Made by a program: the position numbers and the translations under genes. From the NCBI RefSeq assembly GCF_000173075.1, contig NZ_ABVL01000001.1, positions 124,001 to 188,000 of the forward strand: a stretch of DNA of 64,000 bases, read 5' to 3'. This document shows, one piece after another, positions 832 through 4,492 of this stretch (within the stretch, counting starts at the first letter, position 1; every line of letters starts with the position of its first letter). Under the pieces are notes generated by a model. The model searched no databases and was not told where the DNA came from. It saw only the letters and a list, made by a program, of their open reading frames with translations. This DNA is from Chthoniobacter flavus Ellin428. Lineage in GTDB: Bacteria; Verrucomicrobiota; Verrucomicrobiia; Chthoniobacterales; Chthoniobacteraceae.

Positions 832-1824
832 TTACAGCTTGCTCGCGATGAGCTGCTCGAACTTCACGATGTCCGCGGCGAACTTGCGGATGCCTTCCGC
901 CGTCTTTTCCGTGGCCATCGCGTCTTCGTTGAGCTGGAAGCGGAAGGTCTTCTCGTCGAGGTGGACCTGCTTGAGCTGAAGCCCCTGCGCAGCCGCCGCG
1001 TCGAGCTTCTTCGGCAGCTCGTCGGTGCTGGCGGAAAGTTCGCCGAGCAACGAGGGACTGATCGTCAGCAGGTCGCAGCCGGCGAGCTCGGTGATCTCAC
1101 CCTTGTTGCGGAAGCTCGCGCCCATGACCTCGGTCTTGTAGCCGAACTTCTTGTAGTAGTTGTAGATCTCGGTCACCGACTTCACGCCCGGGTCTTCCGT
1201 CGGCGTGTAGTCCTTCTTCGTCGAGGCCTTGAACCAGTCGAGAATGCGGCCGACGAACGGCGAGATGAGCTGCACTTTCGCCTCGGCGCAAGCGATCGCC
1301 TGAGCCATGGAGAAGAGGAGCGTGAGGTTGCAATGGATGCCTTCCTTCTGGAGAGCTTCGGCGGCCTTGATGCCTTCCCACGTGGAAGCGATCTTGATCA
1401 AGACGCGGTCGCGCGAGATGCCGTTCTTTTCGTAGAGGGCGATGAGTTGGTGGGCCTTGTCGATGCTGCCTTGGGTATCGAAAGAAAGGCGCGCATCCGT
1501 CTCGGTCGAAACGCGGCCGGGGACGATCTTGAGGATTTCAAGGCCGAAGCTGACGAGCAGATGATCGGTGATGTCTTCGATCTGCGCATGGCCGGTCAGG
1601 CCGCTGCTCTTGCGGTCGGCGACGACCTTGTCGAGAATGTGTGCGTATTCGGCCTTGCTCGCCGCGGCGAGAATGAGGCTGGGGTTGGTGGTGGCGTCCT
1701 GCGGTTTATAGTCGCGCATGGACTCGAAGTCGCCCGTGTCGGCCACGACTTTGGTCAGCTTTTTCAATGCATCGAGCTGGCTCAATTTCGTTCCGGTGGG
1801 TGCTTCTGCGGTAGCGGTACTCAT
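832..1824 (-). CDS. tal: Transaldolase
   Basis: Transfers dihydroxyacetone between sugar phosphates in the non-oxidative pentose phosphate pathway, in the cytosol. The 330-residue length matches the TalB-type subfamily (about 317). Visible family motifs are DATTNPSL near residue 43, the Schiff-base lysine in [11 protein letters not shown] near residue 143, and a C-terminal phosphate-binding stretch with GASFRN and the LTISPSLL segment. The first 12 residues are a variable extension. It is transcribed alone, with a clear terminator downstream at 775-806. Confidence 0.95.
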
Positions 1825-2034
1825 AATATCGATCTCTTTAGGTAGTGGTTCAGCCTAATATACTAACGGCGGGCTGGTCCCGGGCAAAACGATATTTTTT
1901 CATGCCGAACCCGGCGTTTTGCTCATCGGCCATCGTAAGCCGCTCCTATTTAGCATCTTGCGCAGTAAGCAACGTCTCAGATCGCCTCGTTGCCACCCGA
2001 GATGTTGCCTGGATCAGCGGTTCAGGCGCCCCGA

Positions 2035-3144
2035 TTAAGACGATTTTCTGCACAAATCGGTGACGTGGGTGCGCACCTGGCAACGTGGGTATCGCCGGGT
2101 CGCCTCCTCCAGAAGTAGCCGCGCTTTCTGCAGGCCGCCCATTTTATGGATGGCCAGCGCGATATAGTAAGAGCCGATTGCCAAGTCCTCCTTCTCATCC
2201 GTGCGCGCCATTACCTCCTGCAGCAGTTCCATGCCTTCCTGGCACCTCCCGACCTCCACCAAGAGCGCCCCTTTCGTGCCCTTTAACGTGATCGCCTCGG
2301 GATCCACCCGAATAGCTTCATCGATGTAACCCAGCGCAGGTTCCAGGAAACCCGACAATCCGGTATACAAAGGAATGGAAGCGAGGGCATCCAGACCACG
2401 ACTATACGATAGGCCGAGCGCGCAAGCGTCATCGAGAAAGGCTTTGATCGCGGTATCTGCCTGAGCCTTTTTCCCCGCCGAGAGCAGCCAACAAATCCAC
2501 TGCCGGCGTGGGTCCGATGGCTCGCAGCCTTCCCGCTTACCGGCCTCCTCCAAAAGCTGCAGTGCACGTTCCTCTTCACCGCGGGCAAAGTAGATCCCTG
2601 CGGTATTCCGGAGTTGGCTGATCAGCCGTTGCGCAACTTGGACCCGGGTCATCCGGAGGCACATCCACAACTCCGCGCCATCACTCTGGAAACAAGTCCC
2701 GTACATCCAAACCCGCCGAGGGACGATCGAACCCAGAAATAATGCCGCTTGGGTACCGAGCACAAAAGGCAGGGTATCGCTCGCCCAGGAAGGGAGGGTG
2801 GAAAAAACCTGTGGCTGCTCCACGACCCACCAAAGCATCCAAGCGCTGGCCAAGGACGCAATCGGCCCGGCAATAATAAAAGTGAACACTCTGAGCCGAA
2901 ACCAAGCCGCGGTATTTGTAACCGCGACCACGAACCCACCTACGGGAAAGAGCCGGAGCTGAAAATGCAAATCCCCGCAGCGCAGAAGCGCTGTTTGTTT
3001 TCCACCTCCTAATCGGAACGTCAGCGGTTTCAAGCCGACGAGCACCGCACCGAGCAGATGTCCGCATAGATGAATAAAAAGCCCGAGGTACAGGCCGATC
3101 ACGACCGCCGCAAGGACCAAAAGCAGGCGAACACTGGCATCCAT
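2035..3144 (-). CDS. Membrane protein: degenerate M50-type domain plus TPR repeats
   Basis: 369 residues. The N-terminal 135 residues hold three or four hydrophobic helices with features of site-2 (M50) proteases: a PVGGFV loop and AGPIAS, which resemble the PxGGY and AGPxxN elements. The zinc motif HExxH is present only as H25-L-C-G-H29: the catalytic glutamate is a leucine (codon CTA), so proteolysis is unlikely. The C-terminal half (about 165-360) is a TPR-like helical repeat (NTAGIYFARGEEERALQLL, YYIALAIHKMGGLQKARLLL). A regulatory or scaffold role at the membrane is inference. It is a monocistronic gene between tal and the nucleoside transporter. Confidence 0.7.
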   Translation of the reverse strand: MDASVRLLLVLAAVVIGLYLGLFIHLCGHLLGAVLVGLKPLTFRLGGGKQTALLRCGDLHFQLRLFPVGGFVVAVTNTAAWFRLRVFTFIIAGPIASLASAWMLWWVVEQPQVFSTLPSWASDTLPFVLGTQAALFLGSIVPRRVWMYGTCFQSDGAELWMCLRMTRVQVAQRLISQLRNTAGIYFARGEEERALQLLEEAGKREGCEPSDPRRQWICWLLSAGKKAQADTAIKAFLDDACALGLSYSRGLDALASIPLYTGLSGFLEPALGYIDEAIRVDPEAITLKGTKGALLVEVGRCQEGMELLQEVMARTDEKEDLAIGSYYIALAIHKMGGLQKARLLLEEATRRYPRCQVRTHVTDLCRKSS

Positions 3145-3232
3145 ATTTCAAAAGGATGCTATCTCCCCTTTTGAATTCGATGCCGATCAAAAAAGCTCCC
3201 CACTCGGACCCATTTCTCTACTGTGGGCGGCC

Positions 3233-4492
3233 ATGCTCCGCCTCATTAGCCTGCTCGGGATCGTTGTTTTCCTCGCGCTGGCCTGGCTGCTTTCCAATAA
3301 CCGCCGGCTGTTTCCGTGGCGCACGGTGCTCTGGGGCTTGGGGCTGCAATTTTTCTTCGCGCTTTTCATTCTCAAAACTCCGATCGGTCGAAAGCTTTTC
3401 GATGGCGCGCAAACGGCGATCGGCCAGCTCAATGAAAGCGCCTTTCAAGGAGCGGCGTTGGTGTTCGGTCCATTGGCCCAGGACAAGGCTCTCTCCGCTG
3501 CATTCGGCCCGGAGAACGCGGTGATCCTCGTGATCAAGATCTCCGCGACGATCATTTTCATCTCCTCGCTTTCCTCCCTGCTCTACCACTGGGGCATCCT
3601 GCAGCGCGTGGTGGCGGCGATGGCTTGGGTGATGCAAAAAGCCATGCGGACCAGCGGCAGCGAGAGCCTCGCGGGCGCGAGCAACATCTTCCTCGGCCAG
3701 ACCGAGGCGGCGCTCGTGATCAAGCCGTACCTCGCGAAGATGACGCAGAGCGAAGTAATGGCGCTGATGACCACCGGCATGGCTACCATCGCCTCCGGCG
3801 TGATGGCCGTGTATGCCGGCATGAAGGGCGTCAACGCCGGCCACATCGTCACGGCCTCCGTGCTCGGCGCACCCGCTGGTCTCCTCGTGGCCAAGGTGAT
3901 GTTTCCCGAGACGGAGAAGAGCGAAACCGGCCAACTCCATCATTTCCAAATCGACCGCAAAACCATCAACAGCATCGACGCGCTCTGCCAGGGAGCGAGC
4001 GAAGGGATAATGCTTTCGATCAACGTAATGGGCATGCTCATCGCGTTTGTCGCGATGGTCGCTCTACTGAATATCCTCCTGACGGGATTGCAGTCGGGCT
4101 TGGGCGTCGTCACGCCAGTCACGCTCCAAAAACTCCTTGGATGGGTGAATGCACCTTTTGCCTGGATGATGGGAATGCCGGCGAAGGACTGTGGGGTGAT
4201 CGGCCAAATGCTCGGCGAGCGCATCGTCCTCAATGAATTTGTTGGCTATCTCGATCTGTCGAATTACGTGCAGGCGCATCCAGGAGCTCTGGCCGAGCGC
4301 TCGGTGACGCTCGCCAGCTATGCACTCTGCGGGTTTGCGAATTTCGGGAGCATCGCGATTCAGATCGGTGGTATCGGGGCCTTGGCGCCCAACCGGCGTC
4401 ACGACCTCGCGCGCCTGGGCCCGCGGGCGATGATCGCCGGGCTCATCGCTTGTTATCTTTTCGCGTCGGTCATCGGCGTGCTCATCGACTAA
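3233..4492 (+). CDS. nupC: Concentrative nucleoside transporter (NupC/CNT family)
   Basis: Cation-coupled nucleoside uptake across the inner membrane. The 419 residues have about ten membrane helices and the CNT signatures: GASNIFLGQTEAALVIKPYL (about 142-161) in the substrate and cation site, and CGFANFGSIAIQIGGIGALA near residues 369-388. N- and C-terminal NupC-type domains and a central gate domain are all present and the length is typical. The stop codon overlaps the next start (TAATG), so the downstream DUF218 gene is translationally coupled. Confidence 0.92.
   Translation: MLRLISLLGIVVFLALAWLLSNNRRLFPWRTVLWGLGLQFFFALFILKTPIGRKLFDGAQTAIGQLNESAFQGAALVFGPLAQDKALSAAFGPENAVILVIKISATIIFISSLSSLLYHWGILQRVVAAMAWVMQKAMRTSGSESLAGASNIFLGQTEAALVIKPYLAKMTQSEVMALMTTGMATIASGVMAVYAGMKGVNAGHIVTASVLGAPAGLLVAKVMFPETEKSETGQLHHFQIDRKTINSIDALCQGASEGIMLSINVMGMLIAFVAMVALLNILLTGLQSGLGVVTPVTLQKLLGWVNAPFAWMMGMPAKDCGVIGQMLGERIVLNEFVGYLDLSNYVQAHPGALAERSVTLASYALCGFANFGSIAIQIGGIGALAPNRRHDLARLGPRAMIAGLIACYLFASVIGVLID

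Follow-up and report, generated by a model that had tools for sequence, protein, structure and literature searches.

The window, a stretch of 64,000 nucleotides from the Chthoniobacter flavus Ellin428 genome (7,848,700 bases in 62 contigs), carries on its minus strand a gene at positions 2035-3144 that starts with ATG and runs for 369 codons without an internal stop. Its flanking genes were read by eye as a transaldolase-like gene and a NupC-like gene. The features of the locus, all on the minus strand, are listed below with their evidence in brackets.

2035..3144, minus strand: M50-TPR gene with a degenerate HExxH motif, 369 amino acids (open reading frame, translation, Pfam)
2650..3144, minus strand: M50 (site-2 protease) domain, residues 1-165 (PF02163, AlphaFold2 models, VIA-align)
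3058..3072, minus strand: HLCGH replacing HExxH, residues 25-29, both His retained (translation, alignment)
3067..3069, minus strand: Leu26 codon CTA at the catalytic-Glu position (codon reading, A2 alignment)
2932..2946, minus strand: PVGGF, residues 67-71, closing the M50 beta region (translation, alignment)
2857..2871, minus strand: AGPIA, residues 92-96, with the conserved GP in the second core helix (translation, alignment)
2680..2682, minus strand: Asp155 (in SDGAEL), the third M50 metal-ligand position, retained (invariant in 13 of 13 A2 rows)
2041..2646, minus strand: TPR-like domain, residues 167-368, predicted cytosolic (AlphaFold2, VIA-align, loop charges)

A scan of positions 1780-3300 returned no sigma-70-like promoter site (0.8 expected) and three terminator-like sites (1.7 expected). 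Ahead of the start codon, in 3145-3200, a GGGGAG stretch was located 18 bases from the ATG and an in-frame stop one codon from it, and with this spacing and the adjoining stop the initiation of translation looks weak on a sequence reading. The GC3 of the gene was 0.65 compared with 0.78-0.86 in four neighbouring genes, a low value that was nevertheless inside the range of the open reading frames of the window, six of the 39 lowest-GC2 frames of a crude set having a lower one; it would fit either relaxed selection or a foreign origin. On the same contig (C62) just before the window is a 1,076-residue open frame rich in TPR-like repeats (L089:3-2738, plus strand, 912 residues of it within L089), which ends about 2.3 kb past the 3' end of the gene and outside the window.

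The M50 domain was recognised by profile and by fold. The Pfam family PF02163 (Peptidase_M50) matched residues 14-143 with an E value of 1e-9 and a score of 38.5 bits, above its cut-off of 27.2. A full-length AlphaFold2 model from the window protein and three relatives (pLDDT 72.7, pTM 0.45) gave TPR and other helical-repeat proteins as the structure matches listed, with a best Z of 12.1, and since the TPR half dominated these matches the M50 half (residues 1-175) was modelled separately (pLDDT 70.0, pTM 0.67). Helices were predicted at residues 3-35, 80-108 and 119-140 and a beta region at 39-75. Foldseek matched this model to RseP (7w6x, E 6.9e-4), and a VIA-align 2 comparison in which 217 chains were aligned placed first the RseP of K. 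koreensis (7w6y, Z 14.4, rmsd 3.5, 155 aligned) and that of E. coli (7w6x, Z 13.6, rmsd 3.4, 155 aligned), followed by SpoIVFB with pro-sigmaK (8vjl, Z 10.4, rmsd 3.9, 128 aligned), SpoIVFB E44Q (8vjm, Z 9.0, rmsd 3.9, 132 aligned) and mjS2P (3b4r, Z 8.2, rmsd 3.9, 133 aligned). Nine M50 rows covered the range of Z 8.2-14.4 while the first unrelated protein was found at Z 5.6 (rmsd 4.3, 101 aligned). The profile of the 13-member A2 family alignment also matched E. coli RseP by sequence (E 6.8e-11). An earlier note, made from the DNA letters, had proposed an M50-like fold with its catalytic Glu replaced and had made this depend on structural similarity to M50 proteins; the profile score, the PVGGF and AGPIA elements and the match to RseP bear it out. 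HLCGH as a chance motif was ruled out by the profile match together with the fold match.

In the alignment H25, H29 and D155 of the window protein coincided with the M50 metal-ligand positions. The motif is encoded by CAT CTA TGC GGA CAT. It lacks the catalytic Glu of HExxH that an active M50 protease has, and residues 20-40 include neither Asp nor Glu. The window protein is an M50 homologue that has lost a catalytic residue in a fold that is otherwise intact by alignment and model, which is one mark of a pseudoprotease. A sequencing error behind Leu26 was considered and is unlikely, as the frame is intact and CTA is two substitutions from both GAA and GAG, so that a single miscalled base could not account for the Leu.

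The earlier note had also described a fused TPR part. The model and the family profile agreed with it, in that model residues 175-369 matched TPR proteins in VIA-align with Z up to 12.1, a range where helical repeats match loosely, and the 13-member A2 profile matched TPR structures by sequence with E values down to 4.7e-20. The best Pfam match, to TPR_12, reached 22.9 bits and was under the 30.1 cut-off, and for this reason the domain is called TPR-like here. The loop at residues 36-81 holds five Lys or Arg and the loop at 109-118 holds none. Positively charged loops face the cytosol under the positive-inside rule, so the motif side and the TPR-like domain are probably cytosolic.

Relatives were sought in sets of increasing breadth. 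With the window protein as query, five of 147 related genomes besides its own gave a match at E <= 0.001, and no close orthologue was found in four genus mates at the same threshold. By profile, 213 genomes of the order, 384 of the class and 387 of the phylum were searched, as were 68 genomes of the G341 family, 386 of the G341 order and 293 of the G377 order, with overlap among the sets. The larger searches scored the best few candidates per genome, for example the best nine of 79 in the own genome in the search of the order and the best four in that of the phylum, so that the family may have further members. A scan of a wider collection of genome contigs with the single protein gave no relatives, and one with the A1 profile gave three loci that corresponded to G009, G035 and G082 and nothing new. 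Among the best candidates per genome, the closest full-length relatives were 22-26% identical and came from these three genomes, with intact HELGH, HEFGH and HEIGH motifs respectively. PF02163 overlooks part of the M50-TPR family, as two of the 13 A2 rows had no match at E <= 0.01 and a PF02163 scan of eight relatives lacked the HExxR genes and the intact L155 of G577.

The own genome encodes a distant M50-TPR paralogue on contig C60 (L010:1279-2646, minus strand) with an intact HEFSH. Directly upstream of it a zinc-ribbon-like CxxC...CxxC was seen in a different frame, which suggests a frameshift or sequence slip between the ribbon and the M50 part. Intact M50-TPR proteins at L084:2818-4644 and L166:1352-2722, both on the plus strand, carry an N-terminal CxxC...CxxC segment of this kind while the window protein does not, and in L084 an additional hydrophobic stretch separates the M50 and TPR parts. 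In L152 and L158 the HExxH was intact and the M50 and TPR halves were in different frames, as in a broken gene or a sequence slip. In G051 a TPR half (L164) and an M50 half with HELGH (L165) each lie at a contig end and look like one gene split by the assembly. By eye, aconitase was read beside L018 and a methyltransferase beside L017, and no conserved neighbour hinting at a client was noticed around the window gene and its relatives.

At least 33 distinct M50-TPR proteins were readable in one frame, including 24 with HExxH and nine without. The nine degenerate motifs, from six genomes, were HLCGH in the window protein, HELAR in three proteins, HEVVR in two, and HELVR (G583), HALMR and HATVE in one each; eight of the nine proteins came from a single genome family (f35). 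In the 13 A2 rows H25 and D155 were invariant, Glu26 was present in 12 with the window protein as the exception, and H29 was present in ten and replaced by Arg in three G341 paralogues. Among the M50-TPR proteins compared, the window protein was the only one to lack the Glu and keep both His, while the HALMR and HATVE proteins lacked both the Glu and the second His (HATVE the ligand Asp as well) and the HExxR proteins lacked the second His only. The GP or GG elements were also lost in HALMR, HATVE and most HExxR proteins and kept in the window protein.

Other M50 readings had HExxH in 116 of 116 cases, a control biased towards intact motifs because it was by the HExxH segment that many of its members had been detected, whereas the A2 profile holds degenerate rows. 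It includes the frame-broken L152 and L158 and some sequences that end at contig ends, and 86 of its 116 matches stop short of the Asp position. For an earlier set, with 9 of 23 against 0 of 81, Fisher's test gave p 3e-7, a value that treats related copies as independent; the trees give three changes rather than nine. A regular-expression reading of 30 loci from the PF02163 scan, excluded from the counts, gave a clear M50 HExxH in 21; for the other nine the script picked an incorrect frame or no frame.

Two trees were used to follow the motif. In one of 23 rows, built without the motif columns and leaving out L152 and L158 (frame-broken), L088 (motif masked) and L164 (no M50 half), the motif state changed three times by parsimony, as forced by starred branches. 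The 33-row tree also gave three changes (3-3 over bootstraps), two of them forced by starred branches, and grouped the eight other degenerate rows with three intact ones in an 11-row clade with a support of 94/97 that was not starred. The window row was outside the clade of the other eight degenerate rows in both trees, although it was itself poorly placed, with an end branch of 1.6 and in no starred set. By parsimony, the active-site motif would therefore have changed three times in the M50-TPR family of the Verrucomicrobiota, as far as sequences indicate.

Because no close orthologue of the window gene was found, selection was measurable on the HExxR relatives and not on this copy. Nei-Gojobori dN/dS values were calculated for HExxR genes of one genus, three in one orthologous set and two in another, giving four pairs of which the first three share genes. 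The M50 halves had values of 0.102, 0.046, 0.071 and 0.138 and the TPR halves 0.217, 0.090, 0.082 and 0.139. The low values in the M50 halves indicate that an M50 half without HExxH is conserved as protein there, and show that such a domain can be selectively maintained in the M50-TPR architecture. The earlier note had taken relatives with an intact HExxH as the sign of an isolated error. The nearest relatives are indeed intact, but with two other lineages that lost the motif in different ways, and purifying selection on the HExxR genes, an isolated error fits poorly.

In G578 an intact copy (HELAH) and a degenerate one (HALMR), 39% identical, form a direct tandem (L151:1972-4380, minus strand) that adjoins a recR-like gene. 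The degenerate copy of G578 shares 48% identity with its counterpart in G577, which also has a neighbouring gene read as recR. In the corresponding 3.5 kb of G577 (L150) the degenerate copy was seen and no intact one.

The likeliest identity of the window protein is that of a bacterial S2P pseudoprotease that carries a TPR-like domain. The reading as a pseudoprotease was that of the earlier note; the missing catalytic Glu in an M50-like fold joined to a TPR-like domain supports it, with the Glu-only loss particular to this protein. The note's analogy with rhomboid pseudoproteases that regulate trafficking is a tentative one. We consider it probable, and well short of certain, that the protein is a catalytically dead S2P homologue which probably still binds metal and serves in the membrane as a scaffold or substrate trap. 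Since the Glu position is changed as in SpoIVFB E44Q and E44C and the ligand positions are kept, the simplest account is a protein that binds without cutting. We infer a functional copy that is inactive and binds metal and a client. Leu in place of the general-base Glu should abolish peptide-bond hydrolysis. As the helix core, the beta region and the three ligand positions (His-His-Asp) are retained, a metal would probably still be bound and a membrane segment accepted. The TPR-like domain, probably in the cytosol, would dock a client or partner, and the protein could then act without cutting by holding a membrane client, masking it or handing it to another protease. RseP(E23Q) and SpoIVFB(E44Q), two laboratory mutants, offer a parallel in that they bind substrate and fail to cleave it.

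The strongest alternative, which we regard as unlikely but worth weighing, is that the gene is a decaying former protease whose Glu was lost under relaxed selection while its reading frame is still unbroken. It is a lone copy with no close orthologue among the genomes searched, and the low GC3, the GGGGAG stretch 18 bases from the start codon and the out-of-frame halves of L152 and L158 in the same family would agree with decay. Against it, all 369 codons are intact and both His, the Asp, PVGGF and AGP are kept, unlike in the HALMR, HATVE and most HExxR proteins, although this contrast is not clean as the intact L155 of G577 and the L152 fragment also lack the Pro of the GP element. An improbable second alternative is a non-proteolytic metal protein that uses His-His-Asp for metal sensing or delivery and the TPR-like part for signalling. 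The three retained ligands would suit it, and MamO is described in the available text of PMC4794232 as a bacterial serine protease repurposed to bind metal, but the other eight degenerate proteins are without the second His, so that this metal site is not common to the inactive members. Least probable by a small measure, and very doubtful, is a protease still active through another residue or a metal-bound water, for which the three ligand positions speak and against which stand the loss of cleavage in RseP E23Q, SpoIVFB E44Q and SpoIVFB E44C and the lack of an acidic residue close to the motif.

The preferred reading, a dead S2P homologue that binds without cutting, has counterparts among known systems. 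SpoIVFB E44Q and E44C are catalytically inactive and E44Q was used for studying the complex with Pro-sigmaK, according to the part of PMC9042235 available. RseP and SpoIVFB share with the window protein the M50 core fold, the His-His-Asp ligand positions and the beta region, and SpoIVFB also a soluble C-terminal domain (CBS there, TPR-like here); the window protein differs in the Leu for catalytic Glu and in its minimal three-helix core. The intact M50-TPR proteins of Verrucomicrobiota (those of G009, G035 and G082 and the C60 paralogue) have the same two-part architecture and differ in their complete motifs. In plant chloroplasts EGY3 is an S2P homologue without the protease motif that does not cleave (available text of PMC10978774). 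Compared by such descriptions, it resembles the window protein in lacking a complete protease motif, but EGY3 is without the HExxH zinc-binding motif whereas the window protein keeps both His. Among rhomboids, the bacterial intramembrane protease YqgP can serve as a non-cutting adaptor of FtsH, and iRhom, Derlin and YqgP all exemplify an intramembrane protease fold that binds or presents clients without cutting them, in the available part of PMC7231995; theirs is a rhomboid serine protease fold and not M50. No bacterial S2P pseudoprotease was named in the titles or abstract openings listed from openly licensed literature, in which no paper was found either on a site-2 protease or peptidase M50 with TPR under the term Verrucomicrobi.

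A broader and more tentative proposal, which we hold to be possible rather than likely, is that S2P pseudoproteases arose on three occasions within a single M50-TPR family of Verrucomicrobiota. The tandem of a dead and an intact copy in G578 suggests that active and inactive paralogues may act as a pair. The dead one would perhaps use its TPR-like and M50 parts to bind the membrane clients of the active one, and would shield or present these; the window protein would then be a natural counterpart of the laboratory Glu-mutant substrate traps. Pseudoproteases are well known among rhomboids, while for S2P the plant-specific EGY3 was named as the only pseudoenzyme in the available text of a 2022 paper (PMC9355673). 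With a bacterial family in which the motif was lost several times separately, one could test the role of an S2P fold that has stopped cutting, and whether active and inactive copies control one another.
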